NCBI GenBank assembly: GCA_028281025.1
Contig: JANQKR010000046.1
Span: forward strand, 62,001-126,000
Direction of reading: 5' to 3'
DNA length: 64,000 bases
DNA from: Croceivirga sp.
GTDB taxonomy: Bacteria > Bacteroidota > Bacteroidia > Flavobacteriales > Flavobacteriaceae
The notes beneath the pieces are model-generated. The model had not been told where the DNA came from. It ran no database searches and saw only the letters and a program-made list of their open reading frames with translations. The position numbers and the translations under genes are program-made. Within the stretch, counting starts at the first letter, position 1. Each line of letters begins with the position of its first letter. Positions 23,087 to 46,855 of the stretch are shown piece by piece.

Positions 23087-23647
23087 ATGGAAGATAATGC
23101 TAAGGTTGCCGTAGGATTTTTGGCTGAGGGTATTAAAAACTCGGATGAGAAATCATTTAATGCCCTAATTGACCTATTATGGGGGCCAATGATGGGGTAT
23201 GCTGCATCAATGCTTATGGATGACCATATAGCCAAAGACTTGGTCCAGGATGTATGGGCAGATTATTGGCAACGAAAACAGGAATTGGATGTCCATGATA
23301 TTAAGGCCTATCTCTATAAAGCCATACGCTATCGTTGCTACAATTATTTTCGGGACAAAAAATTTAATGAAACCCAGCTTGAAGCGGCCCACTCGATTTT
23401 CGTTGTCCCGGACGTAGAGCAGCATGAAGATAGCATCGAGTTGTCCAGACGAATAAATGGCACCATCGAAAGCTTACCAAAAAGATGTCAAGAGGTATTT
23501 AAATTAAGCCGCATCAATAATTTCAGCAATGGCGAGATTGCCAAGAAACTCAATATTTCACAGCGCTCCGTTGAAAACCAAATATCCTTGGCACTTCGCA
23601 AGCTTCGAAAGGACTTGACCACGGTGAGGCTTTTTTCTTTTCTATAG
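23087..23647 (+). CDS. ECF RNA polymerase sigma factor (FecI/sigma-70 type)
   Basis: A two-domain ECF sigma factor. ATG 23087 (MEDNAKVAVG) gives 186 aa, the usual size; the frame upstream has no sigma-like sequence. Region 2 includes DHIAKDLVQDVWADYWQR, and region 4 has a helix-turn-helix in NGEIAKKLNISQRSVENQIS. It is followed by fecR and an STN-bearing SusC gene, the standard order of cell-surface signalling in Bacteroidota. The expected job is to switch on the SusC/SusD pair and phosphatase downstream when their substrate binds at the outer membrane. Confidence 0.92.
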   Translation: MEDNAKVAVGFLAEGIKNSDEKSFNALIDLLWGPMMGYAASMLMDDHIAKDLVQDVWADYWQRKQELDVHDIKAYLYKAIRYRCYNYFRDKKFNETQLEAAHSIFVVPDVEQHEDSIELSRRINGTIESLPKRCQEVFKLSRINNFSNGEIAKKLNISQRSVENQISLALRKLRKDLTTVRLFSFL

Positions 23648-23766
23648 CCACCCTTTTTTATGTTAAGGTTAACAAAAACCGCCAATCTTTAAGATACTAT
23701 TAAGCCTTCATTTTTCCGTGTGCGTTGCTGAGTGCTTTTGGTACTTGTTAATGTAAGACACGTACA

Positions 23767-24720
23767 ATGACGGAAAACGACATTAAAGGATTAATGGAGA
23801 AATACCTTAATGGAACAATAACAGAAGGGGAAGAGAAACTTCTGGAGCAATTTGATGGTATTCTTTTATCAAAAAACAAAAAAGTCAATTTCAATAGTGA
23901 GATCCACAAAGCCAGAGTAAAACAAAACCTTTCCCATATCATCCATAAAAGAGGTAAAACGAAATCCCTAAAATGGTTACGGATTGCCGCTTCATGGGCA
24001 TTGATCATAAGTCTTGGTTTTGTGGCCTACAATTGGTCGCATAGCTATGTCCAACAGGAACCCATGGCCGAAATTGTAGAGCACACCAAATGGGGCCAAA
24101 AATTGAACGTAACCTTGGCCGATGGGACCAAAGTTGTTCTGAATTCGGGAAGTACCTTGTGTTTTCCAGAACGTTTTGAGGGGAATTCCAGGGAAGTTGA
24201 ACTTATGGGCGAAGCTTTTTTCGATGTGGTCAAAAACAGGGACAAACCTTTTGTGATAAGATTGGGGGATATCACCACCACAGTGTTGGGAACCTCCTTT
24301 AACATCAATGCGTATCCCGATAAAGAGGAAGTGGCCGTTACCTTGGCCACGGGAAAAGTGAAGATTGCCTCTGCAGATAGTACCGTCTTTATTAGTCCAA
24401 ACCAACAGGCTGTTTTTAACCATTTGAATAAGACCCTGAGCACTTTTCAAGTGGAAATAAATCCCTATATCGATTGGAAAAATGGAATTATCCATATCAA
24501 CGATGCCACTTTGGCCGAGACCGCTGAGATTCTTGAAAGATGGTATGGTGTCAGCTTCGTTTTTGAAAATGAAAAACTAAAACACTGCCATATCACGGCG
24601 ACCTATGACAATCAAACCTTGGCCACGGTATTGGAAAGTATTAAACATGTTAAAAAGGGCATGGGATACGAATATATGGGGGACAATAAGATTCTGATCA
24701 AAGGAAGTTGTAACGATTAA
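23767..24720 (+). CDS. FecR-family anti-sigma factor
   Basis: The 317-residue protein has an N-terminal cytoplasmic part, one membrane helix at about residues 75-91 (LRIAASWALIISLGFVA), a periplasmic FecR domain (WGQKLNVTLADGTKVVLNSGS, GEAFFDVVK, VLGTSFNI) and a C-terminal DUF4974 domain (AETAEILERWYGV). It holds the ECF sigma factor in check and receives the signal from the STN domain of the SusC protein. It starts 119 bp after the sigma gene. Confidence 0.93.
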   Translation: MTENDIKGLMEKYLNGTITEGEEKLLEQFDGILLSKNKKVNFNSEIHKARVKQNLSHIIHKRGKTKSLKWLRIAASWALIISLGFVAYNWSHSYVQQEPMAEIVEHTKWGQKLNVTLADGTKVVLNSGSTLCFPERFEGNSREVELMGEAFFDVVKNRDKPFVIRLGDITTTVLGTSFNINAYPDKEEVAVTLATGKVKIASADSTVFISPNQQAVFNHLNKTLSTFQVEINPYIDWKNGIIHINDATLAETAEILERWYGVSFVFENEKLKHCHITATYDNQTLATVLESIKHVKKGMGYEYMGDNKILIKGSCND

Positions 24721-24775
24721 AGCATAACCCAAACCAAAAAAAAGCATATGAGATAAAGAGTAGTGTAAAAAAAAG

Positions 24776-24822: not shown

Positions 24823-24866
24823 CAACGATTATAACTAATTACAACCATCAAACATTATGTGAAATT

Positions 24867-27800
24867 ATGAATTCGCTAACGATTAAACAATTCATTAAGT
24901 TGACATTCAACGTATTTTGCTTTCTAATACTCCTGGCGCTTTTGAACCCCGCACTTGCAGCCGACGCCAGAGGGCAAAAACTGGAAAATTTTAAAGTAGA
25001 CCTATCCGTAAAGGATGCTACGGTCATAGAAGTATTAAATGAGATCGAATCGCAGACCGACTTCACCTTTGTATATGACCGAAAAGTGAAAAAATTGGAA
25101 AACACCTATGATATTGCGTATCAAAATGTTTCGCTACGTTCCATTTTAGAGCTAATGGCAAAGGATGCCAATCTTATTTTTAGAAGAATCAATGAAACCA
25201 TATCAATAGATGTAAGACCAAAATCCCCCATAATTAGTGTTGTCGAAATAGCTTTTAAAACGGTAACGGGCAAAGTTACCGATTTGGATGGGGTACCATT
25301 GCCAGGTGCTTCGGTCCTTGAAAAAGGAACCCTGAACGGAACAACGACCGATTTTGATGGGAATTTTACCATTGATGTTGCCGATGATGCGATTCTTGAG
25401 ATTTCCTATATAGGATATACCACCCAGGATATTTCAGTACAAGGACTATCCACGCTGTCCGTGCAATTGGTTCAGGATGCCACCCAATTGGACGATGTGG
25501 TCGTTGTAGGGTATGGTGTGCAACGCAAATCGGATGTAACCGGGGCCATTGGTTCCGTAAAAAGTGAAAACTTCAACAAGGGCGTCGTAGCCAACCCTGG
25601 ACAATTGTTGCAGGGCAAAGTGGCCGGTGTCAACGTCACCAATGTAAGTGGTGAACCCGGAGCGGCTCAGAACATTATTATCCGGGGTGTGGGAAGTCTA
25701 CGTGCCGGTACTACCCCACTTTTTGTGGTAGACGGCTTTATCATTGATAACTCCGGAATAGGAGTGGCCGCCAATGCCAATCCCCTGAACTTTATTAATC
25801 CGCAGGATATTGAGTCCATAGATATTCTGAAAGATGCTTCGGCCACAGCAATTTATGGAGCAAGGGCCGCGAATGGTGTTGTAGTGATTACCACAAAAAA
25901 AGGGAAAGCAGGTAAAACGGAAATGAATTTGTCGGTATCCACTGCCTTTTCTACCATTGCCAACCCCATGGATGTTTTCAGTGCCAATGAATTTAGGGAG
26001 CAGGTGGTTGCCGTGGGCGGTTTATTGGAAGATTTTGGAGGCAATACCGATTGGCAGGACGAACTGACCAGGACAGGTATTTCCAATAACGTCAATTTCT
26101 CCATGAGTGGAGGTGTTGCCGAAAAGTCCTCTTATTTCGTATCCGTAGGGGTGGACGATCAGGAAGGTGTTTTTGACAATAGTTCATTAACACGATATTC
26201 AGGCCGTGTAAACTTGAACCAAAAGGCACTCAAGGGACGTTTTAATGTGGATTTGAACCTAACGGCCTCAAGAACGGTAAATGAACGGCCAGATGATCGG
26301 GCCATAGCAAGGGACATGCTCGAATTGAATCCTACCATACCGGTTTTTACCGATGGGGAACCCACCTTCTTGGAAGAACGTATAAATCCTGTCCAGCGCA
26401 GTCGAATTTTTATGGATGAGGCCAATACCAATCGTATTTTGGCCAATATTTCCCCTTCCATTGAAATCGTTAAGGGACTGGTCTACAAATTAAATCTGGG
26501 TGTGGATTATGCTTCAACCAATCGGGATGTACAACGACTTCCATTTGCGCGATTGGAAGATTTTGAAGACGGTTTTTTAAATACTACGGCGACCGTAAAC
26601 ACCAATACCCTTGTTGAAAATACATTGACCTATACCCTTAATAAGGACAAGCACAATATCACTGTACTGGCCGCACATTCCTATCAGGAAACGAGATTGG
26701 AGCAAAAAACCTTTGAACTGGATGGTTTTGCCGATAATGGGATCGAACCTCGGTTCCAAGACCAGATCAGTACGGAAGATTTGCCCACTAGATTGGATGC
26801 CCGGGCATTTGAAAATGAACTGCAGTCCTTTTTTGGAAGGGTCAACTATTCCTATGCCAACAAATACTTGTTTACGGCGACTATGCGGGCCGATGGTTCC
26901 TCCCGCTTTGGGGAAAACAACAAATATGGGTATTTCCCTTCCGTGGCACTGGGTTGGAACATCAGCAACGAAGATTTCATGGCCAATAGTACGTTGTTCA
27001 GCAATTTAAAGTTGCGGGCAAGCTGGGGTCAGGCGGGCAATCAGGATGGGATTCCGAGCAATGTAAGCTTGGCGAGCTTTGTGGACTCCAGGGACGATGA
27101 TGATACCTATCCCCTTGATGGTGACGAAGTCACCTTGGACGATTATCCTTTTGGCACCGTACCGGTACGTACCGCATTTCCGGATCTTCAATGGGAAGTG
27201 TCCACCCAAACCAACATTGGTTTGGACTTTGGCCTTTTTGGCAACAAGATCACAGGTGCGCTGGACTATTTCAACAAAGTGGTCACGGACGTCGTTTTAT
27301 TTGCCAACCGGACCGATCCCATACAACCTACGGAGCGAATCTGGACCAATGTCCCGGATTTGGAAATCATCAATAATGGGCTTGAGTTTTCCCTGGATTA
27401 CAGGGGAAGTTTTGGCGAGGACTTCATTTTTAATGTTGGGGGCAATATCGCCTATACCGATAATAAAATAGAAAACTCCCCATTTGCCGTCTTGACCACA
27501 GGTGGTGCCGTAGGAGCCGGTCAAACAGGTGCTACGATCAATGGGTATATCAACGGGGAACCCGCAGGAACCTTCTTTATGAAAGAATTCATAGGGATAG
27601 GGGACGATGGCTTAAATGAATTTAGGGATGTGAACGGGGATGGCCAATCCTTGGACAATGACCGGATTGCCGCTGGCAGCGCACTACCGGACATTATCTA
27701 TGCCTTTTACCTCAATTTCAATTATCGAAATTTTGATTTGGGCATCAATTTTAATGGGGTTGCCGGTAATAAGATTTATAACCATACGGCCATGACCATC

Positions 27801-28166
27801 TTTTCCAATAGTCAACTAAGTAGAAGCTTGAACACTACCGATTTTGCGATTCAATTTCCCAATGAGGATCTCAGCAATTCCAACGAGGTATCCACCCGTT
27901 ATCTGGAAGATGGCGACTTTTTACGATTGAACAATGCCACCTTGGGCTACACCTTGAACCCTCAATTAATAGGATTGGACGAATGGGTGAACAATATTCG
28001 TTTTACGTTGACGGGACAGAACCTATTCGTGATTACCGATTATTCCGGTTTTGATCCCGAAATCAATACCGGGAACAATGTGGATGGAATCCAGACGTTT
28101 GGAATCGATCGTTTTACCTATCCCGCGCCCAGAACCTTGCTGTTGGGCCTAAATGTATCGTTTTAA
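24867..28166 (+). CDS. SusC/RagA-type TonB-dependent outer-membrane receptor with STN signalling domain
   Basis: Outer-membrane active importer working with the SusD lipoprotein. After a signal peptide (residues about 1-32) comes an STN domain (about 45-105, SVKDATVIEVLNEIES), which contacts FecR. Then follow a carboxypeptidase-regulatory-like beta domain (VTGKVTDLDGVPLPGASV), the plug with LDDVVVVGYGVQRKSDVTGA, VAGVNVTN and IDILKDASATAIYGARAANG, and the barrel ending in Phe. Length 1099 aa is typical. The STN domain and the sigma/FecR genes upstream predict substrate-induced expression. The substrate is not readable from sequence; the phosphatase downstream suggests a phosphorylated compound. 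Confidence 0.95.
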   Translation: MNSLTIKQFIKLTFNVFCFLILLALLNPALAADARGQKLENFKVDLSVKDATVIEVLNEIESQTDFTFVYDRKVKKLENTYDIAYQNVSLRSILELMAKDANLIFRRINETISIDVRPKSPIISVVEIAFKTVTGKVTDLDGVPLPGASVLEKGTLNGTTTDFDGNFTIDVADDAILEISYIGYTTQDISVQGLSTLSVQLVQDATQLDDVVVVGYGVQRKSDVTGAIGSVKSENFNKGVVANPGQLLQGKVAGVNVTNVSGEPGAAQNIIIRGVGSLRAGTTPLFVVDGFIIDNSGIGVAANANPLNFINPQDIESIDILKDASATAIYGARAANGVVVITTKKGKAGKTEMNLSVSTAFSTIANPMDVFSANEFREQVVAVGGLLEDFGGNTDWQDELTRTGISNNVNFSMSGGVAEKSSYFVSVGVDDQEGVFDNSSLTRYSGRVNLNQKALKGRFNVDLNLTASRTVNERPDDRAIARDMLELNPTIPVFTDGEPTFLEERINPVQRSRIFMDEANTNRILANISPSIEIVKGLVYKLNLGVDYASTNRDVQRLPFARLEDFEDGFLNTTATVNTNTLVENTLTYTLNKDKHNITVLAAHSYQETRLEQKTFELDGFADNGIEPRFQDQISTEDLPTRLDARAFENELQSFFGRVNYSYANKYLFTATMRADGSSRFGENNKYGYFPSVALGWNISNEDFMANSTLFSNLKLRASWGQAGNQDGIPSNVSLASFVDSRDDDDTYPLDGDEVTLDDYPFGTVPVRTAFPDLQWEVSTQTNIGLDFGLFGNKITGALDYFNKVVTDVVLFANRTDPIQPTERIWTNVPDLEIINNGLEFSLDYRGSFGEDFIFNVGGNIAYTDNKIENSPFAVLTTGGAVGAGQTGATINGYINGEPAGTFFMKEFIGIGDDGLNEFRDVNGDGQSLDNDRIAAGSALPDIIYAFYLNFNYRNFDLGINFNGVAGNKIYNHTAMTIFSNSQLSRSLNTTDFAIQFPNEDLSNSNEVSTRYLEDGDFLRLNNATLGYTLNPQLIGLDEWVNNIRFTLTGQNLFVITDYSGFDPEINTGNNVDGIQTFGIDRFTYPAPRTLLLGLNVSF

Positions 28167-28182
28167 TAAAAATTGTATAAAA

Positions 28183-29940
28183 ATGAAAAATAGAATCTTA
28201 ATCGCAATCTTGGCTTTTTGCCCCCTGTTACATTGGAACTGTACGGATTTAGAGGAAGAACGTTTGGACGAATCCGAATTTGGGGGCCAAGCGGAACTTG
28301 TTAGCGGGTCCATTGCCCCTGCTTATGGATATGTTTCCCGGGTTTGGCTGCACACACGCTATTTTGGCTTGCAACTGCTGGCTGCAGATGAGGGTATCCT
28401 GCCCTTCCGTGGCGGAACCGACTGGTTTGATGGTGGAAAGTTTATCGCTACCCATGCCCATACCATGACACCTACCAATGACCTCATTGGCGATAGCTGG
28501 AACGAGGTGACCATAAATATATCCAGGACCTTGGCGGCCATTGAGGTCTTGGAACCACTGGCGGAAAACGGGGATAATGAAGCCCAAGGGGCATTGCACG
28601 AAATGAGGGCCTTGAGGGCTTACCTGAATATATTGTTGTTGGACAGTTGGGGAGTTGTACTTAGAAAAGAGTCCTCCGCAGAACTATCCGAAGTGTTACG
28701 GGGCCAGGACGCCGTGGACTATATTGAAAGTGAGCTATTGGCCGTTGTGGATGTCATCAATGCCACTAGGGGCCCCGGCAGAATGACCCAAGCGGCGGTT
28801 TGGGGGCTTTTGGCCAGGTTACATCTTAATGCGGCGGTATACCGTGATCCCTATGGAACACCAAATTTCTCCGCAGCGGATATGGACGAAGTCATTAGGT
28901 ACACCGATAATATCATCAATTCCGGAAACTTTGCCTTATCGCCCGAGTACTTTGACCTGTTCAACGATGACAACAACAGTAACCCAGAACTCATTTTTGC
29001 ATTGGACCAACGGGGTCAACTGGAAGATGAACACAGCAGATGGGCCTATTGGTCCATAGCGGGGGATATGTTTCCAAGACCGGAATCCCCAAGGGCCGAT
29101 GGTACGGACGGACCTGCCTTTACCTCGGATTTTGTACAGACCTGGTTCGATGCCTACGGCGCTACCGATCCTGCTGAGGCCGATGCACGATTCTACCAAC
29201 GGAATACCCTAATTCCCGATGCGCAATTGCAAGACTTTGAAAATCGTGAAAAACTGATTGCCACAGAAACTGAAAACAGCTTTTATTGCATCGATCCGGA
29301 TGATTTTGAAATGGATAGGGGTATTCTACGGGGAATTCAATGGGGCCCCCGAAAGGGTGACGATGGTGCCTTTTTGACCTGTGATGGGGGTCAGGTACGG
29401 ATTTATCCAGTCCAGCTGACCCGGGGAAGTGGTCCAGATCGCGATGTGGCTTATGTAAACCATACCTTTGATATTGATTTTACCAATGAAGGTTCCCTGC
29501 ACAACAAAGGCTACCGCTGTTCCAAATACCAATTTAGTCGGACCTCTCCTGACGGAAATGATTTTAGTAGTGTGGATTTGGTCTTGATGCGTTTGGCCGA
29601 GATTTATCTCATGCGTGCCGAAGCCAAACTGAGAAATGGGGATGCAGCCGGTGCTTTGGCCGATGTCAATGCCGTACGGACATCAAGGACTGCCCGTCCG
29701 GAGCAGACCCCAGAGGCGTTGACTTCCCTGGATTTGGACATCCTTTTCCGTGAACGTGGCTTTGAGTTGTATTGGGAAGGTTTTAGGCGTGGGGATCAAA
29801 TCCGTTTTGGAAAATACGAAGATTCCTGGACGGAGAAAACCAATACGGATGTCAACAAAAGGTTGTTCCCCATTCCACAAAGTGCTGTGGATGCCGCGTC
29901 GGGAATTGATGGCTTTTTAGAGCAGAATCCTGGATATTAA
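28183..29940 (+). CDS. SusD/RagB-type substrate-binding surface lipoprotein
   Basis: Partner lid of the preceding SusC. ATG 28183 (MKNRILIAIL) gives a lipoprotein signal with Cys at LLHWNCTD; an upstream ATG would overlap susC by 14 bp and spoil the signal. The protein is TPR-helix rich and has typical SusD features: ALHEMRALRAYLNILLLDSWG, MRLAEIYLMRAEAKLR, and ILFRERGFELYWEGFRRGDQIRFG near the C-terminus. Length 585 aa. A strong hairpin terminator lies about 40 bp downstream. Confidence 0.94.
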   Translation: MKNRILIAILAFCPLLHWNCTDLEEERLDESEFGGQAELVSGSIAPAYGYVSRVWLHTRYFGLQLLAADEGILPFRGGTDWFDGGKFIATHAHTMTPTNDLIGDSWNEVTINISRTLAAIEVLEPLAENGDNEAQGALHEMRALRAYLNILLLDSWGVVLRKESSAELSEVLRGQDAVDYIESELLAVVDVINATRGPGRMTQAAVWGLLARLHLNAAVYRDPYGTPNFSAADMDEVIRYTDNIINSGNFALSPEYFDLFNDDNNSNPELIFALDQRGQLEDEHSRWAYWSIAGDMFPRPESPRADGTDGPAFTSDFVQTWFDAYGATDPAEADARFYQRNTLIPDAQLQDFENREKLIATETENSFYCIDPDDFEMDRGILRGIQWGPRKGDDGAFLTCDGGQVRIYPVQLTRGSGPDRDVAYVNHTFDIDFTNEGSLHNKGYRCSKYQFSRTSPDGNDFSSVDLVLMRLAEIYLMRAEAKLRNGDAAGALADVNAVRTSRTARPEQTPEALTSLDLDILFRERGFELYWEGFRRGDQIRFGKYEDSWTEKTNTDVNKRLFPIPQSAVDAASGIDGFLEQNPGY

Positions 29941-29980
29941 TGCGTTTAACAGTTAGCAGTTAGTTTAAGTTAGTTTGTCT

Positions 29981-30020: not shown

Positions 30021-30180
30021 TGTTCCTTTCAATGGTGATTTATGCGATTTTCATTTTTACAATGGAATGGCGACCCCGCTATAAATTTTCATTTGGATTT
30101 GGCCAAAGATCGGCTAACACCAATGGACAAAAAAGACTTTAATGGGAAAAAAAAACGGACCAAATAGCAATACGGGTACA

Positions 30181-31962
30181 ATGAAACCATTCGCCATACT
30201 ATTTTTTGTACTGTCACTTTGTACCTATGCCCAGCATACGGTAAAACAGGAAAAAACTACCTACAAGGTACATTCCCATAACGACTACCAACAGCAATTT
30301 CCATTTTGGAAAGCCTATGTCAGTGGGGCCGCTTCCATTGAAGTGGATATTTTTTTAAAGGGGGCATCCCTTTACGTGGCACATGAAGAACACGAAATAG
30401 TTTCAACAAAAACCTTGGAGAAGCTTTATTTGGATAAACTGGAGGCCTTGGCGACATCCAATGACCTAAGGGAATTACAGTTGCTTGTGGACATAAAGTC
30501 CGAAGCGTATACGACCTTGGACAAATTGATCGAGGTCTTAGAAAAGTATCCCACTCTCCTGGACAGTGATAAAATTCGTTTTGTGGTTTCCGGTAATCGA
30601 CCCAAACCGGACGATTATGGAAAATACCCTGGTTTTATCCTGTTCGATCATCAGGATTTGAGTAACCTCGATGTAATACCCTTGGAAAAAGTAGCACTCA
30701 TCAGTCTTGACTTTAGAAGGTATTCGGTTTGGAATGGTTATGGACGTCTGGTGGAATCTGAATGGGAAGCAGTAAGGCGAATCGTTAAAAAAGTCCATAG
30801 TTTTAATAAGCCTTTTAGATTTTGGGCAACATCGGATACTAAAACGGCCTGGGCCCGCTTGGCCCAACTGGGGGTGGATTATATCAATACGGATAGACCG
30901 GAACGCGCTGTGCCCTTTCTAAACCAAATGGATGGTAATACGTACCGACAAAAAACACCAATAGCGACCTATTTGCCGGAGTATGGTATCCCAAAAAAAG
31001 CCAAACCCAAAAATGTGATACTAATGATAGGCGATGGGAACGGCCTCGCCCAAATAGCTGCATCCATGATTGCCAATCATGGCGAACTTACCGTGAAGGG
31101 GATTAAGGATATTGGCTTGGTGACAACTGCGGCTTATGACGATCTGATCACGGATTCAGCCGCAGGTGCAACGGCAATGGCCACAGGTTCAAAAACGGAC
31201 AATCGGGCAATTGGTGTTGACCCCAATGGCGGAAGACTGCAAAGTTTGGTTGAGCTTACCAGCGGGAAAGGTTTCAATACGGCCATTATAACGACCGATA
31301 AGATCTATGGGGCCACGCCAGCCGCTTTCTATGCGCATAGGACCGAACGGGACGATAAGCGGGGAATTTTAAGGGATTTGGGCAATAGCGAACTTGATTT
31401 TTTTATTGCTGGGGGACAATCCCAAGAAACCACGATCCAAAAGAAGTTTAAGACCCAGGTACTGGAACAACTTCACGATTTTGAACAGCCTACCGCCATA
31501 TATTTGGATGAACCTATAACGCCACCTTTGAAAGAAGGAAGAAAGGGTGATCTATTTAAAAATGTAAAAAAGGCCCTGGAGGTTTTGGATAAAAGGAAAG
31601 AACCCTTTTTTTTGATGATTGAAGGTGCTCAAATAGACAGCGGGGGCCATGAAAACAATATTGGAAAGATCATTCGGGAAATGCTGGATTTTGATCTTGC
31701 CATTGCGGAGGCCCTACGTTTCGCCGATGCTTCCAAAAACACATTGGTAATAGTAACCGCAGATCATGAAACTTCCGGCCTTGGCATTGTGGGTGGTGAT
31801 ATGGGGAGTGGTACCGTGCAAGTGGATTTTCTTACGGTCGATCATACAGGGATTCCAGTACCCCTTTTTGCGTATGGGCCTCAGTCAAATAGTTTTCGCG
31901 GTATGTACGGGAACACCGAAATATTTAATAAAATAGTAGGGGCATTGTTCCCAGAAAAGTAA
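30181..31962 (+). CDS. Exported phosphodiesterase (PI-PLC/GDPD-like)-alkaline phosphatase fusion
   Basis: Two hydrolases in one chain. ATG 30181 gives a signal peptide (residues 1-18, cleaved near TYAQ). Residues about 24-250 resemble the PI-PLC/glycerophosphodiester phosphodiesterase fold, with VHSHNDY (His31, His33), IEVDIF (Glu54, Asp56) and His68, where catalytic and metal residues occur in that family. Residues about 275-593 are an alkaline phosphatase with IGDGNG (Asp285), nucleophile Ser326 in TDSAAGATAMATG, and TADHETSG metal ligands. The order implies cleavage of a phosphodiester and then release of phosphate. The short phosphatase core lacks large insertions. Specificity is unknown. 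Confidence 0.85.
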   Translation: MKPFAILFFVLSLCTYAQHTVKQEKTTYKVHSHNDYQQQFPFWKAYVSGAASIEVDIFLKGASLYVAHEEHEIVSTKTLEKLYLDKLEALATSNDLRELQLLVDIKSEAYTTLDKLIEVLEKYPTLLDSDKIRFVVSGNRPKPDDYGKYPGFILFDHQDLSNLDVIPLEKVALISLDFRRYSVWNGYGRLVESEWEAVRRIVKKVHSFNKPFRFWATSDTKTAWARLAQLGVDYINTDRPERAVPFLNQMDGNTYRQKTPIATYLPEYGIPKKAKPKNVILMIGDGNGLAQIAASMIANHGELTVKGIKDIGLVTTAAYDDLITDSAAGATAMATGSKTDNRAIGVDPNGGRLQSLVELTSGKGFNTAIITTDKIYGATPAAFYAHRTERDDKRGILRDLGNSELDFFIAGGQSQETTIQKKFKTQVLEQLHDFEQPTAIYLDEPITPPLKEGRKGDLFKNVKKALEVLDKRKEPFFLMIEGAQIDSGGHENNIGKIIREMLDFDLAIAEALRFADASKNTLVIVTADHETSGLGIVGGDMGSGTVQVDFLTVDHTGIPVPLFAYGPQSNSFRGMYGNTEIFNKIVGALFPEK

Positions 31963-34691: not shown

Positions 34692-34701
34692 TCAAGAAAT
34701 A

Positions 34702-39200: not shown

Positions 39201-39419
39201 AAGCTGGGATATAGCTTTCCGCAAAATTTGTTGAAGGACACTTTTATACGATCGTTGAACATTGCCCTTGTGGGCAGAAACCTTGCCCTTTGGACCGAGA
39301 ACCCCCATTTTGACCCCGAGACCATCTCGTTCAATGGAGGTACCGTTGTTCCCGGGGTGGAGGACATGGCCTTACCAAGCTCCAGAAGCTATGGATTTAA
39401 TATAAACGTAACTTTCTAA
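36231..39419 (+). CDS. Second SusC/RagA-type TonB-dependent outer-membrane receptor
   Basis: 1062 aa with a signal peptide (residues 1-20, cleaved near GLAQ), a carboxypeptidase-regulatory-like domain (FTGTVVDESNVPLPGASVVI), plug with LDEVVVTALGIEREKKRLGY, VAGVQVTG and ISILKGPNATALYGSRGLNG, and a C-terminal barrel ending in Phe. Unlike the first SusC it has no STN domain, so it should not signal through FecR; the divergent XRE-cupin regulator is the obvious alternative control. It heads an operon with susD, phosphodiesterase, oxidase, PbfA-like enzyme and metallophosphatase. Confidence 0.95.
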   Translation: MKRTLVLALFTGLVGFVGLAQKTFTGTVVDESNVPLPGASVVIKGSSTGVATDFDGNFEIELSDGSEILLVSYVGYLTKEFDVANQSNATIQLVPDAQNLDEVVVTALGIEREKKRLGYSVQEVKNENLVTARETNVTNSLAGRVAGVQVTGGGSGVGSTSRIVIRGEGSLIPGNNSPLFVVDGIPITNRTISNRAEGNLETDFGNGAADINPDDIESISILKGPNATALYGSRGLNGVVLVTTKSGSRTQGLGISFTQNITFEDALRIPKYQNQYGQGAGGEFAFGDGFGGGINDNIDESWGPALNGQLIAQHDSPTTSGFRAGDFAVRPRNPDGTFADEIVATPWVANPGNIEDGFFETGRTLTTNLSLTGGNEQGNFRLSLTNLDNEGILPNTDFNRKTYALSGAYNLADWLRVSSSINYVNSSSNNRPNNSYGTENIMYLWVWFGRQINMDSLRDYWQPGLEGRQQFNYNYNWHDNPFFTMFENTNGFDKHRIFGNARADINLTKDLSLMVRTGIDYFSELRTGRRAYSTQRFARGQYREDDIFFKEQNTDFLLTYNKEIDGDFTIGASLGGNIRKEENRYKRISANSLSVPGIYNFQNAAEPLAKTQFNDERKINSLYAFANLSYKNMLFLDVTGRNDWSSTLPADNNSYFYPSVGLSAILSDMFQLPQAFTFLKLRGGWARVGNDTDPYALRNTFGFNEPFGNFQRVSASSVLRNENLKPEEANSIEVGADIRFFGNRLGLDITYYNSITRNQILTLPVANTSGFNSRIINAGEIQNQGIEIVLNANPIRTDNFSWDTSMNFTSARGEVKELTDGINTYEMSNNYLSVQARVGGRMGDVYGTGLVTVDDPDSEFFGQVVHDENGFSLRDPNLKKLGNYNPDFTLGWQNNFSYKNFNLGFLFDWRQGGVIMSRTVLIGGTSGLMDFTAVGRETGIVSEGVIQNADGSYRPNDVTLSGRDYYWWRYNRGNEEIGMFDASFLKLREVKLGYSFPQNLLKDTFIRSLNIALVGRNLALWTENPHFDPETISFNGGTVVPGVEDMALPSSRSYGFNINVTF

Positions 39420-39438: not shown

Positions 39439-40890
39439 ATGAAAAAGTATATAACAATTGGTGCAGTTGCCTTTCTGACCTTGTTTGGCTGTACGGAAGA
39501 TTTTGAGGAAATCAACACCAACCCGAACGAGCCAGAAGTGGTCAGTTCAGATTTGTTGTTGTCAACCGTCATTTCCACTTTGGCGACCACTGCAGCTGAT
39601 GCCAGCGGATGGGACAGGGGAAATATCGTGGCACAATTGACCGCTAAAATCAACTTTACCGGTTTTGATCGGTATAGTTGGGGATCGGAGTCAGGTCTTT
39701 GGAACACCTACTATGGCATACTTCCGGAAATAAATATCATCCTTGAAAATGCCAGGGCCGAAGAAAGTAGAAATACCAGTTACGAAGGTATCGCACTTAC
39801 GCTTAGGGCGTACGTATTTGCAAACCTTACCGATAATTATGGTGATGTGCCATTTTCTGAGGCAATTAGCGGTATTGAAGGGAATTTTACCCCGGCTTAT
39901 GATACACAGGAAGACATCTACGAAGGTATTTTGACCGATTTGGGTACGGCAGAGGCCCAATTGGCATTGGGTCAACCAATATTGGGAGGAGATGTTTTAT
40001 ATGGGGGTGATATTGAGAAATGGCGAAAATTTGCCAACTCACTTCGCTTGCGTTATTTGATGCGCGCATCGAATAGACTTGAAGGGGGATTTGTTTCCAT
40101 AGAGATGGCCTCAATTTTGGATTCCGGTATTTTTATCGCCACCAATGAGGACAATGCGGCTATGGTCTATCCAGCTTCCACCCAAATTGATTCATGGCCA
40201 ATTAGTACAGGACGAATTGGTGGTTTTGACGAACATCGCATGAGCGAGACCAGTGAGGCAACTTTAAAGCAGTTTAATGATGGCCGTCTTGAAGCATGGT
40301 TTCAACCTACCGATAACCCGGAGGACGATCCAACACTTTTTGTAGGTTTACCAAATGGGTTAAGTGAAGATGCAGCCTCCACTTTCAATGGTGGGGCAAG
40401 TAATGTTTCCCGTTTGAACCAAGCTTTCTTTTACGATAGTCCAAATTCCGTAAAAGCGGCAATAATTCAGGCTGCCGAGGTGCACTTTATCTTTGCCGAA
40501 GCCCTCCAAAGAGGGTTGCTGAGCGGTGGGGATGCGGAGGTTTTTTATAATGAAGGTGTTCGCCTGTCCTTTGAATATTGGGGTGTAGATCAAGATGTTC
40601 CGTCGTATTTGACCCAGCCAGGTGTGGCGTATGATGGGGAATTGGAGACTATAATTACACAGAAGTGGTTGGCCTCTTTTTTGGTTGGCCTGGAAGGTTG
40701 GTATGATTTCAGAAGGACTGGCTTTCCGTCCGCAATCGTTCCTGGTCCCAACAACACCAATGCAGATAGGGTTCCCGTAAGGTTTTTATACCCGGATTCC
40801 GAACAAACATTGAATGGGGACAATTATCAAGCGGCAGTTTCAAGATTTGGAGGTGATGACATTAATACTAAAGGATGGTGGGAAAATTAA
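39439..40890 (+). CDS. SusD-like substrate-binding surface lipoprotein, second pair
   Basis: 483 aa, starting 19 bp after its SusC partner. Lipobox LFGCTED is near residue 15. It shows SusD-like helical repeats (EGIALTLRAYVFANLTDNYGD, DIEKWRKFANSLRLRYLMR) and belongs to the shorter, SusD_2-like branch, clearly different from the 585-aa SusD of the first pair. It captures the ligand at the cell surface for the second SusC. Its last codons overlap the next gene by 16 bp. Confidence 0.92.
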   Translation: MKKYITIGAVAFLTLFGCTEDFEEINTNPNEPEVVSSDLLLSTVISTLATTAADASGWDRGNIVAQLTAKINFTGFDRYSWGSESGLWNTYYGILPEINIILENARAEESRNTSYEGIALTLRAYVFANLTDNYGDVPFSEAISGIEGNFTPAYDTQEDIYEGILTDLGTAEAQLALGQPILGGDVLYGGDIEKWRKFANSLRLRYLMRASNRLEGGFVSIEMASILDSGIFIATNEDNAAMVYPASTQIDSWPISTGRIGGFDEHRMSETSEATLKQFNDGRLEAWFQPTDNPEDDPTLFVGLPNGLSEDAASTFNGGASNVSRLNQAFFYDSPNSVKAAIIQAAEVHFIFAEALQRGLLSGGDAEVFYNEGVRLSFEYWGVDQDVPSYLTQPGVAYDGELETIITQKWLASFLVGLEGWYDFRRTGFPSAIVPGPNNTNADRVPVRFLYPDSEQTLNGDNYQAAVSRFGGDDINTKGWWEN

Positions 40891-42569
40891 AAAGAACAGT
40901 GTTTAAGCATTTTTTTCAAGTAGGTATGGCAACGACCATAGGAATTTTATTCCTATGGTCTTGTTCATCTAAGAACACCACCGAACTTCACAAAATTGAA
41001 CACATAATTGTTATCGGGGTAGATGGTATGAGTCCGGATGGGATCCAAAAAGCTGAGACCCCGATGCTGGATACCATGATTGTCAACGGCGCAGCTACAA
41101 TGTACGCCCGTTCGGTGTTCCCATCAAGTTCAAGTCCCAATTGGGCCAGTATGTTAATGGGGGCAGATACGGAGCATCATGGTATCACCTCCAATGCCTG
41201 GCAAAAGCATGACCACAAATTACCTCCGGTAGTTGTGACCGAAGAAGGAACTTTCCCAACAATTTTCACCCTGTACAAAGATCAGACGCCGGAAGCCCAT
41301 GTGGGCGCTATTTATGACTGGGACGACTTTGGCCGACTCTTTGAAAAGACCGATGTTGCTTTTGACATTAACGGCGACCACGAAGATGGCACTACCACCG
41401 ATGCCGTGGCCTACATTAAAGAACATCGTCCAAATTTCACCTTTGTACACTTAGATCATGTTGATCATGCCGGGCACAGCATGGGGCATGGCAGTTCTGG
41501 ATACTACACCTCGGTAGCAAAGGCAGATTCCTTGATATCGGAAATTGTGGACGCCACCAAGGAAGTCGGAATTTTTGAAAAGACCATGTTCATTGTGGCT
41601 TCTGACCATGGTGGATTGGGCTATGGTCATGGGGGCGAAAGCCCTGCGGAAATGACCGTCCCCTTTATACTTTATGGCGCAGGTATCAAAAAAGGCTATA
41701 CCATCGAGGAAACGGTCTACCAGTTTGATAATGCATCGACCGTAGCTTATGCTGCAGGTTTGGAACAACCGCAGTCATGGATCGGCAGACCGGTAAAAGG
41801 GGCTTTCATTGGAAATGAAAAGCCTGTAATAAGGTATAAAAAAAAGGAAATGATATCGGCTCCCCGGATTTTGCCCAGCACTGGTCATTTTACCCCTGCG
41901 GGGGGTGTGTTCAGGGCAGACTCCGCTAAGGTAGAAATGCAAAACCCCAATAATGATGGCACCATTCATTTTACTTTGGATGCCACTGAACCGACCGTTG
42001 AAAGCGAAGTGTATGGACTATCGTTTTATCTTGGTCGGACAACGGTTGTCAAGGCAGCTGTCTTTATGGAAAACGAAAGCCAAAGTACGGTCTCGGAAGG
42101 TAATTTCAGACTTATCCCTGAAACCAAACCTGCTCCTGTGATGTACGAGGTCTTTCATGGCGATAAAATGGAACGCTTGCCTGAATTCAAAGTGCTAAGT
42201 CCTGTTTTCAAAGGAAAAGTGGATGATTTCTCACATGTCGGAATTTTGGGAAACACGGCAAGGAAAGAACAGGTGGCCTTGGTGATGGAAAGTCACCTAG
42301 AAATAGATTACTCGGGCAAGTATACTTTCTTTATCAATAGTGATGATGGTAGTAAATTGTATGTCAATGGCTTACTTCTTGCTGATAACGATGGTAATCA
42401 CGGTGTGCTCGAACGAAGCGGAAGCCTGGACCTGGAAAAGGGGAAGCACCTCATAAGGGTGGAGTTCTACAATGGCGGGGGCGGTTACCATTTGGATGTG
42501 CGCTATAAGGGGCCAAACGTGCCCAAACAGATCATACCGTCCAATAAACTTTATACAAAAGCCAATTGA
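40875..42569 (+). CDS. Type I phosphodiesterase/alkaline-phosphatase-superfamily lipoprotein with CHB_HEX_C-like and PA14 domains
   Basis: 564 aa. Lipoprotein signal with Cys in LFLWSCSS. The catalytic domain (about 42-325) has VIGVDGMSPDG, nucleophile region FPSSSSPNWASMLMG and metal ligands HLDHVDHAGHSMGHG and ASDHGGLGYGHGG, as in nucleotide pyrophosphatase/phosphodiesterase or phosphonoacetate-hydrolase-like enzymes. Next comes a small beta domain with TIHFTLDATEPT, like the chitobiase C-terminal domain. Last is a PA14 domain (SGKYTFFINSDDGSKLYVNG). The accessory domains suggest a glycan-linked substrate. It overlaps susD by 16 bp. Whether it cleaves P-O or C-P bonds is open. Confidence 0.85.
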   Translation: MVGKLKRTVFKHFFQVGMATTIGILFLWSCSSKNTTELHKIEHIIVIGVDGMSPDGIQKAETPMLDTMIVNGAATMYARSVFPSSSSPNWASMLMGADTEHHGITSNAWQKHDHKLPPVVVTEEGTFPTIFTLYKDQTPEAHVGAIYDWDDFGRLFEKTDVAFDINGDHEDGTTTDAVAYIKEHRPNFTFVHLDHVDHAGHSMGHGSSGYYTSVAKADSLISEIVDATKEVGIFEKTMFIVASDHGGLGYGHGGESPAEMTVPFILYGAGIKKGYTIEETVYQFDNASTVAYAAGLEQPQSWIGRPVKGAFIGNEKPVIRYKKKEMISAPRILPSTGHFTPAGGVFRADSAKVEMQNPNNDGTIHFTLDATEPTVESEVYGLSFYLGRTTVVKAAVFMENESQSTVSEGNFRLIPETKPAPVMYEVFHGDKMERLPEFKVLSPVFKGKVDDFSHVGILGNTARKEQVALVMESHLEIDYSGKYTFFINSDDGSKLYVNGLLLADNDGNHGVLERSGSLDLEKGKHLIRVEFYNGGGGYHLDVRYKGPNVPKQIIPSNKLYTKAN

Positions 42570-42577
42570 ACAGTGCT

Positions 42578-43819
42578 ATGGATATTGAAACCAAAAAAGC
42601 AGGGGCGGTGGTCATAGGAGCCGGAACCATTGGGGCGGCTACGGCATGGCATTTGGCAAAAAGGGGTGTAAGGGACGTAATGTTGGTAGATCGGAATCAA
42701 GTAGGAACGGGTAATACGTCCAAAGCCGCTTCCCTAATGACCTCAATACGTCACAAAGAGGCTATGGTACCCCTGATAAAGGAAACTTATGACAATATTG
42801 ATGAGATAGAGAACCTTACAGGTGAGTCCGTAGGAAAACAGACCGTAGGAACCTTACATATAGCAGCCTCCCAAACCACATCACGAACTTTGGACCAGCT
42901 AAGGGAAATTGCCGATAGGCACCAAGTGCCCTATCAAGAACTGGATATCGAACAGCTTCAGGAAAAACTACCATGGTACAATGCTGAAAAAGCGGTTCGA
43001 ACCTTGTTTTTCGAGCACGATGCTTTTGTGGACGCCTATGTGTTGGCCAAAGTGTTTGCGGAAGCGGCAAAAAAAGAAGGAGCCTTGGTAATACAAAATA
43101 CCGAAGTGTTGGAACTTGTGCGACAAAACAAGACAATGACTGCTATAAAGACCAATAAGGGCACTATTGAGACGCCTATTGTTGTAGATGCTGCCGGTGC
43201 TTGGGCCAATCAGCTTTCGTTACAGGTCAATGTACCCATACCTATGGCCCCGGTACGAAGCATTTACTGGATTACGGAAAAGAACGAAAACCTATTTCCA
43301 AAAGACCAGCCCATGGTCTCGATGCCCGATGCCATGGCCTATTCACGACCAGAAGCTGGTGGACTGCTCTTCGGCCTAAGGGAAGAGAACAGTCCGCACT
43401 TTCATCCCGACGAGCTGGAAAAAGCGCCCAATTCCGAATTTTTGGGAAATCCTGAGGACCAATGGGATATTATTATGGAGCATGGTCAGGATTTTGCTTC
43501 TTTTTTTCCTGGGTTCGAAGAGCTGGGCATTGAAAACTGTATTACCGGTATTTCTACCTATACCCCGGATGGATATTACACCTTTGGTGAGTTGCCCAAT
43601 GTGGCCAAGGGTTTTTATGTGGCGGCGGGGTGTTCCGGCGCTGGCGTGGCCGGTTCGGGAGGTATTGGCAGAATGATTTCGGAAATGGTATTGGGGCAAG
43701 AACTTTATGCCGATCCAAGTGCATTCCTGGTGGATAGGATAACTGATTTTGATCCTATGTCAGAAGCATTTGGACAACGTTGTGCCGACGCCCGAAGCAA
43801 AAAGAAGGATGGAGGTTGA
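42578..43819 (+). CDS. FAD-dependent amine oxidoreductase (DAO family), phosphonate operon
   Basis: 413 aa from ATG 42578 (MDIETKKAG); a TTG at 42566 overlapping the previous stop is an alternative start. The N-terminal Rossmann motif is VVIGAGTIGAATAWHLAKRG, then NTSKAASLMTSIRH, and a C-terminal VAAGCSGAGVAGSGGIG flavin loop. Similar to sarcosine/dimethylglycine-oxidase-type enzymes. Between a phosphodiesterase and a PbfA-like lyase, it probably oxidises an aminophosphonate, perhaps an N-methylated one, as described for FAD enzymes of other phosphonate clusters. Substrate inferred only from context. Confidence 0.8.
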   Translation: MDIETKKAGAVVIGAGTIGAATAWHLAKRGVRDVMLVDRNQVGTGNTSKAASLMTSIRHKEAMVPLIKETYDNIDEIENLTGESVGKQTVGTLHIAASQTTSRTLDQLREIADRHQVPYQELDIEQLQEKLPWYNAEKAVRTLFFEHDAFVDAYVLAKVFAEAAKKEGALVIQNTEVLELVRQNKTMTAIKTNKGTIETPIVVDAAGAWANQLSLQVNVPIPMAPVRSIYWITEKNENLFPKDQPMVSMPDAMAYSRPEAGGLLFGLREENSPHFHPDELEKAPNSEFLGNPEDQWDIIMEHGQDFASFFPGFEELGIENCITGISTYTPDGYYTFGELPNVAKGFYVAAGCSGAGVAGSGGIGRMISEMVLGQELYADPSAFLVDRITDFDPMSEAFGQRCADARSKKKDGG

Positions 43820-43904
43820 ACATGGGGCGAACCACCCAAAAGCAGGGTTTCGGAAGGAAGGATGTGAAATCCATTAAATAAACGGGTATTTTCAAAATGG
43901 AACT

Positions 43905-45272
43905 ATGAATGGTGATAACCAAAAAAAAGAAGTGCAGCGGTTGGTGGAAGGCGATATCAACCTTTCTGAAGCCAGGAAAAAATGGTGGGAGGAACAACTG
44001 GCACCGGCAACCCGAGAATTGTTGCGTCGGGATGCCAATTGTTTTGTACACCAAGCATTATCCACTCCTTGTCTGGATGCCCTGGAGCATTGCCAAGGGG
44101 CTTATATTCACAATTTGGAGGGTAAAAAATACCTGGATTTTCACGGCAACAATGTGCACCAAATAGGGTTTTCACATCCAAAAATGGTGGGTCGTCTGGT
44201 AGATCAGCTCCAAAACCTGACTTTTTCCACCCGTAGGTACACCAATGAGGTGGTCGTCCAGTTTGCCGAAAAGCTATTGGCTACTTTGCCCAATGCGCTC
44301 AACAAGTTGTTATTGACCCCGAATGGCAGTTCGGCAATAGGCATTGCATTGAAATTGGCCAGGGCAGTAACCAATAAACACAAGGTGATATCGTTCTGGG
44401 ATTCGTTTCATGGGGCGTCGTTGGATGTGGCCAGTGTGGGCGGTGAAGCCATTTTTATGGACCATATGGGACCCATCGCCACATGGGCCGAACGTATTCC
44501 ACCCCCCATAACCTACCGGGGAATTTTTGAGGGCAATGAGTCCAAAGCATTGGAATATTTAGAGTATATATTGACCAAGGACAACCAAATAGGAGCGTTT
44601 TTGGCAGAGACCATTCGCAATACCGATGTACAGATACCCTCCAAAACCTTTTGGCAAGAGGCCCGAAAATTATGTGATAAACATGGGATACTATTGATTT
44701 TGGACGAAATTCCGATTGCTTTTGGTAGAACGGGTAAAATGTATGCATTTGAACATTTTGAAATTGAACCCGATATTTTATGTTTGGGTAAGGGACTTGG
44801 TGGTGGAATCTTTCCACAAGCGGCGGTTGTGACCCGTTCTGAATACAATAAATTTCAACACATCTCCCTTGGCCATTACACCCATGAGAAGAGTCCTTTG
44901 GGAGCTATGGCGGGGCTCACCATGCTCGAAATCATTGAAGGGGAAAACCTCCTGAAAAAAGTCGCGCAGGACGAAACCTTTATGTGCTTGGCCCTGAAGC
45001 GTTTTCAGAAGAAATATAAACTTATTGGTGATGTTCGTGGTATGGGTCTTCTTTGGGGAGTGGAACTGGTTACCGATAGGTCAACCAAAGAAAAAGCCGT
45101 CCAAGAAGCTGAGGAGATCATGTACCGTTGCCTCAAAAATGGGTTAAGTTTTAAAGTCTCTAAGGGAAATGTGTTGCAGTTGTCCCCAGCCTTGACCATT
45201 TCTCGGGAGCAACTGCAAACTGGACTTTCCATTTTAAATGAATCGTTTTTAAGAACAAATACCATTGCCTAA
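43905..45272 (+). CDS. pbfA: PLP enzyme of aminotransferase class III, PbfA-like (1-hydroxy-2-aminoethylphosphonate ammonia-lyase)
   Basis: 455 aa. The start region (NLSEARKKWWEEQLAPATRE, then HQALSTPCLDAL) and VISFWDSFHGASLDVASVGG resemble sequences annotated as (R)-1-hydroxy-2-aminoethylphosphonate ammonia-lyase, which makes phosphonoacetaldehyde and ammonia. PLP motifs: LLILDEIPIAFGRTG (Asp binding the pyridine nitrogen) and the Schiff-base Lys in CLGKGLGGG. Phosphonoacetaldehyde would be the substrate of a PhnX-type hydrolase such as the one at 34702. A general class III transaminase is the alternative. Its stop overlaps the next start by one base (TAATG). Confidence 0.75.
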   Translation: MNGDNQKKEVQRLVEGDINLSEARKKWWEEQLAPATRELLRRDANCFVHQALSTPCLDALEHCQGAYIHNLEGKKYLDFHGNNVHQIGFSHPKMVGRLVDQLQNLTFSTRRYTNEVVVQFAEKLLATLPNALNKLLLTPNGSSAIGIALKLARAVTNKHKVISFWDSFHGASLDVASVGGEAIFMDHMGPIATWAERIPPPITYRGIFEGNESKALEYLEYILTKDNQIGAFLAETIRNTDVQIPSKTFWQEARKLCDKHGILLILDEIPIAFGRTGKMYAFEHFEIEPDILCLGKGLGGGIFPQAAVVTRSEYNKFQHISLGHYTHEKSPLGAMAGLTMLEIIEGENLLKKVAQDETFMCLALKRFQKKYKLIGDVRGMGLLWGVELVTDRSTKEKAVQEAEEIMYRCLKNGLSFKVSKGNVLQLSPALTISREQLQTGLSILNESFLRTNTIA

Positions 45273-46855
45273 TGAAAAAAACAATCTTCCTTTTGACGTT
45301 TATGTCGCTAACAATACAGGCCCAACAAAAGACAGAATTTTTAATTCGCCCGTATCTACAGGATGCCGAACCAACCCATATCAAAGTTCTTTGGGAAACC
45401 AATCAGGGAGGGGAAAGTATAGTGGAGTGGGGACCAACCCCAAAATTGGGTAAAAAGACATCAGGGAAATCCTATGCGGTCAATTACGGTGCTTCAAGAA
45501 TCCATGAAGTACAGCTAACAGGTTTAAAGCGGTTTACGGAATACTACTATAGGGTACGAACGGCAAATGCCGTTTCGGAGGTTTTTCAATTTCAGACACC
45601 TCCTTTTGCCGAAGACAACGAATCATTCAATCTGTTGGCAATGAGTGATATGCAGTATGATCGGAACTATCCGGGGAAGTTCGGGGAGATTGTCAATGAG
45701 GGGATACTGCCATTTTTGAAATCACATTATGGTGGGGAAATTCAGGACAACCTGGCGTTGGTCATGATACCGGGGGACTTGGTTGAAAATGGAAGCAAAT
45801 ATCACCAATGGAAAGAACACTTTTTTAATCCGGCGGAAGGCCTCTTCGCCCAAGTTCCGGTGTATCCTGTTTTGGGCAATCACGAACGTAATTCATTGTA
45901 TTATTTTAAATATTTCAGCTTACCGGAAAATGGTGACCCTGCCTATGCCGAACATTGGTGGTACAAAGATTATGGCAATATTCGAATCATCGGATTAGAT
46001 TCCAATGAAGGTTATGACGATTTAAGGGAACAAAGGGAGTGGCTTACAGAAGTATTGGACAAAACCGCTAAAAATCAAAAAATTGATTTTGTTTTTGCCC
46101 AATTGCACCATCCCCATAAATCGGAACTTTGGTTGCCAGGGGAAAGCGAATCAACGGGAAAAGTGGTAAAAATGTTGGAGGAATTCACCACAAGGACCGG
46201 TAAGCCCAGCCTGCATTTCTTTGGTCATACCCATGCGTATTCCAGGGGACAGTCACGGGACCATAAACATCTTTGGGTCAACGTTGCCACAGCTGGGGGG
46301 GCCATTGACAACTGGGGCGAGTTTGAAGGTCGTGATTATGATGAATTTACCTTTAGTGATGATGATTATGGTTTTGTCATGGTTGAGGTTGACAATGCCG
46401 ATCCGCAAAACGCAAAAATGACCATAAAACGGGTAAGCAGGGGCAACGAAGCAATGTTCAGAAACAATCTGCCAACGGATAGCATCACAATTTTTAAAAA
46501 AGAAAAAAAACCAAATACCCCGGACGCCTTATCACCTGCCAATGGTAAAGTGGTTGAAATAACGGGGACTTTGCTTAAGGCGAAGCCATTCAAAAGTGAT
46601 TTTGAAGGCGCTTTTCATGCGGCTTCACATTGGCAGGTAAGTACGGATTCTTCTTTTGAAACATTGGTATTGGATAGTTGGAAACAATATGAAAACTGGT
46701 ATTACAAGGAGAATAGACAACAAGATGATGACCTCACGGATGAACCGACCAAAAGATTGGAGAAAAGTACCCAGTACTTTTGGAGGGTCCGTTATCGCGA
46801 TCAATACCTAAATTGGAGCGATTGGTCACCTACGGAAACCTTTAAAACAGAATGA
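45272..46855 (+). CDS. Exported purple-acid-phosphatase-like metallophosphoesterase
   Basis: 527 aa with a signal peptide (residues 1-16, cleaved near TIQA). A fibronectin-III-like N-terminal domain (IRPYLQDAEPTHIKVLWETN) is as in purple acid phosphatases. The calcineurin-like domain has AMSDMQYD, IPGDLVENG, LGNHERN, QLHHPHKSE and FFGHTHAYSRG supplying the di-metal ligands, and there is a C-terminal Trp-rich beta domain. Likely hydrolyses phosphomonoesters or diesters outside the cytoplasm. The one-base stop/start overlap couples it to the PbfA-like gene. Last intact gene of the operon. Confidence 0.88.
   Translation: MKKTIFLLTFMSLTIQAQQKTEFLIRPYLQDAEPTHIKVLWETNQGGESIVEWGPTPKLGKKTSGKSYAVNYGASRIHEVQLTGLKRFTEYYYRVRTANAVSEVFQFQTPPFAEDNESFNLLAMSDMQYDRNYPGKFGEIVNEGILPFLKSHYGGEIQDNLALVMIPGDLVENGSKYHQWKEHFFNPAEGLFAQVPVYPVLGNHERNSLYYFKYFSLPENGDPAYAEHWWYKDYGNIRIIGLDSNEGYDDLREQREWLTEVLDKTAKNQKIDFVFAQLHHPHKSELWLPGESESTGKVVKMLEEFTTRTGKPSLHFFGHTHAYSRGQSRDHKHLWVNVATAGGAIDNWGEFEGRDYDEFTFSDDDYGFVMVEVDNADPQNAKMTIKRVSRGNEAMFRNNLPTDSITIFKKEKKPNTPDALSPANGKVVEITGTLLKAKPFKSDFEGAFHAASHWQVSTDSSFETLVLDSWKQYENWYYKENRQQDDDLTDEPTKRLEKSTQYFWRVRYRDQYLNWSDWSPTETFKTE

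Follow-up and report, generated by a model that had tools for sequence, protein, structure and literature searches.

A 64,000-nucleotide window of a Croceivirga sp. genome (assembly GCA_028281025.1, contig JANQKR010000046.1, positions 62,001 to 126,000, hereafter the window, whose numbering is used throughout) contains a gene island that is probably a phosphate utilization system (PUS)-type locus for scavenging aminophosphonates, composed of two modules. The genes around pbfA form a real, conserved and functionally coherent aminophosphonate locus. From its sequences, the most likely chemistry is the conversion of 1-hydroxy-2-aminoethylphosphonate (HAEP), N-methyl-AEP (M1AEP) and 2-aminoethylphosphonate (AEP) to phosphonoacetaldehyde (PAA) and further to phosphate. 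The gene content was established from open reading frames and from domain and family profile models with curated cut-offs, and each gene named in the original prediction, which described a two-pump organophosphorus and phosphonate acquisition island, was found in place. Three informative enzymes exceeded the curated cut-offs of their family models. PbfA (43905-45272, +) scored 690.3 versus 525 bits with NF049939, 165 bits over the cut-off and 26 bits over the next model. FAD oxidase 1 (FAD1; 33537-34691, +) scored 411.8 versus 285.1 bits with TIGR03364, the PbfD family, and the PhnX-like HAD hydrolase (34648-35379, +), a candidate phosphonoacetaldehyde hydrolase, scored 230.1 versus 218.9 bits with TIGR03351.

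The best evidence on the fate of PAA is the exchange of complete pathway endings across genomes. We surveyed an even sampling of the Flavobacteriaceae (samples of 299, 298, 298 and 297 genomes, handled as a single sample), in which PbfA was present in 21 of 299 genomes. Fifteen of the 21 carried the HAD, five carried PhnA over its cut-off (G018, G129, G162, G212 and G240) and one carried neither, so the HAD and PhnA never overlapped. Because complete endings replace each other in this manner, the HAD appears to consume PAA. Classical PhnX (TIGR01422) was over its cut-off in none of the 21 PbfA genomes, and the best match to its model was the locus HAD itself in 15 of them. Across the family, the HAD was found in 23 of 298 genomes, and all 23 with a match exceeded the TIGR03351 cut-off. 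The five PhnA genomes carried a phnA-phnY-phnW set together with an AepP-like carrier; their PhnW-like proteins, at 346-352 bits, fell short of the TIGR02326 cut-off (400.8), and weaker matches to the PhnW model of 153-163 bits (G189, G217, G018) were not counted as PhnW. This set and its carrier, of the MFS GlpT/PgtP kind, adjoin pbfA in Kriegella aquimaris (L025 and L072, the same contig), where the model scores were 406.8 versus 360.8 for the PhnW-like protein (TIGR03301), 474.1 versus 407.6 for PhnA and 642.3 versus 635.7 for PhnY. In three genomes (L180, L181, L183) the set shares a contig with pbfA at a distance of 13-43 kb, and in the genome of L182 the two are on different contigs. A third ending was found at L122, where classical PhnX (316.9 versus 220 bits), PhnW and an MFS protein stand beside PbfA and SusCD. 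The window's own genome has neither PhnW nor classical PhnX over cut-off.

The residues of the HAD are consistent with this assignment. The DxAGT nucleophile motif and the cap lysine were present in 68 of 68 locus HADs and a GRP motif in 67 of 68, as counted by pattern search rather than by alignment, and the window HAD and those of 17 relatives could be aligned to the classical L122 PhnX. The solved relatives that we found were phosphonoacetaldehyde hydrolases (6 of 6 sequences). We infer that the TIGR03351 HAD is a phosphonoacetaldehyde hydrolase replacing classical PhnX. The predicted breakdown of aminophosphonates to phosphate is thus supported by the PbfA, PbfD and PhnX-like scores together with the replacement of the HAD by PhnA, and aminophosphonate catabolism by the locus, as far as sequences can tell, is well supported by comparison.

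Conservation was assessed in the best 80 of 592 confirmed PbfA matches (L044-L123), fetched by PbfA alone; many of these loci come from few genera, and the 10-kb flanks and contig ends conceal genes. Within about 10 kb of pbfA, the HAD was found in 57 of the 80 loci, FAD1 in 56 and both together in 56. The exported phosphodiesterase (PDE) was present in 63, SusC2 and SusD2 in 48 each, the helix-turn-helix (HTH)-cupin regulator in 52, DUF5690 in 41 and the purple-acid-phosphatase-like enzyme (PAP) in 40, and a second PDE and a metallo-beta-lactamase (MBL)-like protein in 38 and 27, respectively. The common order is DUF5690-FAD1-HAD, the HTH-cupin gene on the opposite strand, then SusC2-SusD2-PDE-[MBL-like or FAD2]-PbfA-PAP-[second PDE], and it is seen, complete or as far as the flanks extend, in Flagellimonas, Maribacter, Zobellia, Mangrovimonas and others. 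In Leeuwenhoekiella the same genes are arranged differently, and Dyadobacter has a recurring set of HAD-FAD1-PDE-PbfA-DUF5690. The association of these genes is not due to chance. Two members of the wider set do not occur in the window's island: the secreted MBL-like protein of about 423 amino acids (THxHDDH, no Pfam match; L079:8734-10002), whose open reading frames were found in 38 of 100 pooled loci including L079, and the second PDE, an alkaline-phosphatase-superfamily enzyme of about 360 amino acids encoded 3' of the PAP gene (for example L079:12948-14030). The pooled counts (68 HADs, and 44 intergenic regions and 66 loci below) combine the 80 loci with 20 further ones, at least five of which duplicate the 80. 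Solitary PbfA relatives (L092-L095, L098, L099, L112, L114, L116-L118) came mostly from Chitinophagaceae or Sphingobacteriales.

In the window, the genes from SusC2 to PAP are near-contiguous, with successive gaps of 19, -16, -4, 85 and -1 bases. SusC2 (36231-39419, +) has Plug, barrel and CarbopepD_reg_2 domains over cut-off and is followed by SusD2 of the PF12771 type (39439-40890, +; 311.5 bits), the exported type I PDE with CHB_HEX_C_1 and PA14 domains (40875-42569, +), FAD oxidase 2 (FAD2; 42566-43819, +), PbfA and the exported PAP-like metallophosphoesterase (45272-46855, +; PF16656 and PF00149 over cut-off). The PDE has an NPP-type fold, its structure matches being NPPs at ranks 1-15 and sulfatases from rank 16. 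Most NPPs use threonine as the nucleophile, and the PDE has a serine instead; this Ser86 and the presumed metal-ligand positions are invariant in 32 sequences. We also considered the PDE as a phosphonate monoester hydrolase. Such enzymes bear the formylglycine signature C/S-x-P-x-R, and we rejected this assignment on finding S-x-P-x-W at the site, where the signature is missing. FAD2 is a DAO-family protein (PF01266, 204 bits) with no equivalog; a homologue with 65% identity occupies the place of FAD1 at L173, and FAD2 is probably a second oxidase of PbfD-like role. PbfA is described as an ammonia-lyase (PMC8154272), and PbfD members are reported to oxidize M1AEP and AEP to PAA, releasing ammonia or methylamine (PMC10590968).

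On the other side of the regulator gene, DUF5690 (32261-33553, +; PF18943, 548 bits) is a membrane protein and a candidate inner-membrane aminophosphonate carrier. Its longest frame is 32225-33553, with the ATG at 32261 as the likelier start. It overlaps FAD1 by 17 bases; FAD1 in turn overlaps the longest HAD frame by 44 bases, and the likelier HAD start, an ATG at 34702, leaves a 10-base gap. DUF5690 was found in 26 of 298 family genomes, including 23 of the 23 with the HAD, and the three without the HAD (G129, G162, G212) all have PhnA. In the eight genomes with DUF5690 and no PbfA, the HAD was near DUF5690 in all eight, accompanied by FAD1 in seven and by the FAD2 homologue in one (L173). 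An AlphaFold model of the protein (pLDDT 89.3) had SLC37A4/G6PT as its solved-fold matches 1-5, and an invariant Arg-Lys pair in the first helix and an invariant arginine in a later helix occupy places that we take to resemble those of the phosphate-binding arginines of GlpT. The antiporter-like membrane protein of the original prediction is thereby sharpened to DUF5690, with a fold nearest to organophosphate:phosphate antiporters by a small margin. DUF5690 is a candidate aminophosphonate transporter family on account of its fold, of its invariant residues and of the way it and AepP replace each other. Two PhnA genomes have a second DUF5690 subfamily in the vicinity of a short type I phosphodiesterase (L178:9383-11671, L179:7225-10815).

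The HTH-cupin regulator (35380-35946, -; HTH_3 and Cupin_2 over cut-off) is separated from the SusC2 gene by a divergent intergenic region (35947-36230) that is a candidate operator region. The motif TATTTGTAAA has two matches in the 64-kb window, both in this region (36085-36094, +, and 36213-36222, -), as compared with 0.38 expected and with two or more matches in 3 of 100 shuffles. All 44 of the equivalent intergenic regions contained the motif. Among 104 matches in 66 loci, 90 lay in the spacer by the HTH-cupin gene, four upstream of DUF5690 in loci of other gene order, nine within genes and one elsewhere. TATTTGTAAA is likely to be the operator of the HTH-cupin protein. An operator shared by both halves of the island was considered and rejected, as in the window neither DUF5690 nor SusC1 is preceded by TATTTGTAAA.

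Taken as a whole, the island probably works as follows. In the periplasm or extracellularly, a GDPD-alkaline phosphatase fusion, the NPP-like PDE and the PAP-like enzyme would cut phosphate and phosphonate esters, and both SusCD pairs would carry the material across the outer membrane; phosphonate-bearing lipids or glycans are a reasonable idea for what is captured. DUF5690 would move aminophosphonates over the inner membrane. In the cytoplasm, family membership and published enzymology suggest that PbfA would convert R-HAEP, and FAD1 as PbfD would convert N-methyl-AEP and AEP, to PAA. The HAD, judged by its mutually exclusive replacement and its conserved catalytic lysine, would then yield acetaldehyde and phosphate. 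If the HAD does hydrolyze PAA, neither PhnW nor classical PhnX would be needed. The HTH-cupin protein would govern the SusC2 operon via the TATTTGTAAA sites. The fuller picture of a marine Flavobacteriaceae locus resembling a polysaccharide utilization locus (PUL), which takes in phosphonate lipids or glycans and mineralizes AEP, N-methyl-AEP and R-HAEP without PhnW or classical PhnX, with DUF5690 as a new family of transporters and TIGR03351 as a new family of phosphonatases, is tentative, and we hold it possible rather than probable.

The first module forms the left part of the island, whose edge lies slightly upstream of the previously noted 23087. It begins with an ECF sigma factor as its regulator (22952-23647, +; Sigma70_r2 and r4_2 over cut-off) and a FecR-type anti-sigma factor (23767-24720, +; FecR and FecR_C over cut-off). 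These are followed by the outer-membrane importer SusC1 (24867-28166, +; TIGR04056, 770.6 versus 368 bits), in which about 130 residues precede the carboxypeptidase-like domain starting at residue 133, by SusD1 (28153-29940, +; PF07980) and by the PhoA1-like fusion of GDPD_2 with alkaline phosphatase (30142-31962, +; PF13653 and PF00245 over cut-off). The full-length fusion, defined by query span, occurs in 32 of 297 genomes, in one of which (G172) it is interrupted by a stop. In the remainder of the 87 genomes with a match, the match covers a single half or the gene is divided.

It is quite possible, if not the account we would favor, that the two modules are independent neighboring loci, adjacent by chance: one for glycerophosphodiesters and phosphomonoesters, resembling PUSII and running from the ECF sigma factor through FecR, SusC1 and SusD1 to the fusion, and one for aminophosphonates, running from DUF5690 to PAP. 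The modules have different regulators, and a gap of 298 bases separates the fusion from DUF5690. Near pbfA (within about 10 kb), the fusion was found at only 4 of 80 loci and SusC1 at 7 of 80, and PbfA is absent from 16 of the 32 full-length-fusion genomes. SusC1 or SusD1 (at least 57% identity) was found within about 1.5 kb of the fusion in 17 of 30 fusion loci, a count that includes the window but not a 24% SusC1 match at L194. Such independence is, however, at odds with the enrichment of the fusion in PbfA genomes (16 of 21, against 32 of 297 in the whole sample; hypergeometric p 8e-14, relatedness ignored) and with the recurrence of the adjacency, in other order, in other genera (L029, L076, L079, L204, L206). 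The two modules are co-inherited, separable and seldom adjacent. Of the earlier claim that two SusC/SusD pairs serve one island, the presence of both pairs and their co-inheritance stand, but the pairs belong to two separable modules.

Other observations weigh against reading the island as an aminophosphonate locus with the roles proposed above. In 11 of 80 loci pbfA had no other member of the gene set nearby, so PbfA by itself is no proof of the pathway; PbfD was surveyed at loci rather than genome-wide; and one PbfA genome (G121) has neither the HAD nor PhnA. In Dyadobacter, SusC2/SusD2 was within about 10 kb in only 2 of 17 loci, and TATTTGTAAA is not beside the HTH-cupin gene. The HAD misses the TIGR01422 cut-off (101.7 versus 220), and where the L122 PhnX has a presumably functional histidine directly after the lysine, the window HAD has alanine. 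For DUF5690, the fold matches at ranks 6 (NorA), 7 (SPNS2) and 8 (galactonate symporter) lie within about tenfold in E-value, the hhalign comparison with organophosphate:phosphate antiporters is a weak match (E 8e-4, probability 24.5, 80 columns), and a sequence search of the PDB gave no meaningful match. The family also matches a Caulobacter control genome, which speaks against a narrow role, and in G129 and G162 it is found apart from pbfA, next to a short PDE (L178, L179), so its substrates may be wider. The HAD and FAD1 might even act on another compound, such as hydroxy-phosphonoacetaldehyde or a non-phosphonate, with PbfA a mis-annotated aminotransferase. The solitary PbfA relatives would fit this, and in the texts covered our literature search turned up no tested TIGR03351 member; we nevertheless regard it as improbable, given the margins of the PbfA score over the cut-off and the next model and given that the HAD-less PbfA genomes have PhnA (5 of 6) and not unrelated enzymes. 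It is also unlikely, though less so, that the locus serves nitrogen or carbon rather than phosphorus supply, with AEP, methyl-AEP and HAEP as sources of ammonia or methylamine independent of phosphate. The products reported for PbfD (PMC10590968) and the ammonia-lyase activity of PbfA (PMC8154272) would suit such a function, as would AepP, which is described as allowing phosphate-insensitive growth with 2AEP as nitrogen source (PMC8316502), and the cupin regulator suggests control by substrate. The many exported phosphodiesterases and phosphatases in the locus argue for phosphorus instead, as does the cluster of PhoA1 and PusCD2 in Flavobacterium johnsoniae, which is reported to be induced by phosphate depletion (PMC8115612).

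Several neighboring genes were observed in the window. A small HEPN-domain protein is encoded just left of the island (22479-22868, -). Rnf/NQR-type electron transport genes (FeS, RnfC_N, NQR2_RnfD_RnfE, FMN_bind) occupy 11129-22457 (-) and adjoin a gene for a very long pyruvate:ferredoxin oxidoreductase of 1655 amino acids, a surprising find for a marine flavobacterium that is presumably aerobic. V-type ATPase-like subunits (52320-54710, -; ATP-synt_C over cut-off, V_ATPase_I below) are found downstream of a phosphoenolpyruvate carboxylase gene. The V-type ATPase-like and Rnf genes hint at sodium-based energetics.

Our literature search, with subscription papers and figures outside its scope, found no description of this locus and no paper on DUF5690. 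What is new here is the SusCD-linked route lacking PhnW, the candidate transporter family and the likely operator, and the comparison assigns testable roles to the DUF5690 and TIGR03351 families. Marine phosphonate gene surveys count phnW, phnX, phnY, phnA and phnZ among others (PMC9381506). Such marker surveys probably undercount Flavobacteriaceae, because PhnX was over cut-off in 0 of 21 PbfA genomes and PhnW-like proteins were present, below cut-off, in 5 of 21. In addition, Kriegella aquimaris (L072), a member of the Bacteroidota, has pbfA-phnY-phnA, the families having been tested on the identical L025 genes; this contradicts the statement in the text of PMC12366243 that the combination occurs only in Proteobacteria.

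With glycan PULs the island shares SusCD pairs, exported hydrolases and ECF/FecR control. It differs in that domain searches of the island gave no glycoside hydrolase or lyase, and a glycan PUL was rejected since no carbohydrate-active enzyme was found in it. AepP, a proven GlpT-like 2AEP permease reported from Kriegella aquimaris (PMC8316502), is matched by DUF5690 in its place in the gene set, its antiporter-like fold and the first-helix Arg-Lys pair, but DUF5690 is a separate Pfam family. To the hydrolytic AEP pathways PhnWX and PhnWYA, which have PbfA, PbfC and PbfD as accessory enzymes, the locus is linked by PbfA and PbfD, as scored by the models, by the common product PAA, and by the phnA-phnY-phnW set in sister genomes without the HAD; it differs in using a TIGR03351 HAD coupled to SusCD importers. 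The closest likeness is to the PUS of Flavobacterium johnsoniae and relatives (PUSI-IV, PusCD), in which a SusCD-like pair stands beside phosphomonoesterases and phosphodiesterases (PMC8115612). The predicted PUL-like organization for phosphorus is therefore supported and, as PUS, already published there. That paper mentions phosphonate genes near PusCD in a general remark, and its main text, figures aside, is without the words PbfA, PhnX, FAD-dependent, amine oxidase, transaminase and DUF5690. The window differs further in having two SusCD pairs side by side. In the island, a SusCD-like pair is likewise co-localized with phosphomono- and phosphodiesterases, and the resemblance is most specific to PUSII, whose PhoA1 has the same extra pf13653 domain (PMC8115612) as the fusion at 30142-31962, so that here, too, a PhoA with PF13653 adjoins a PusCD pair.

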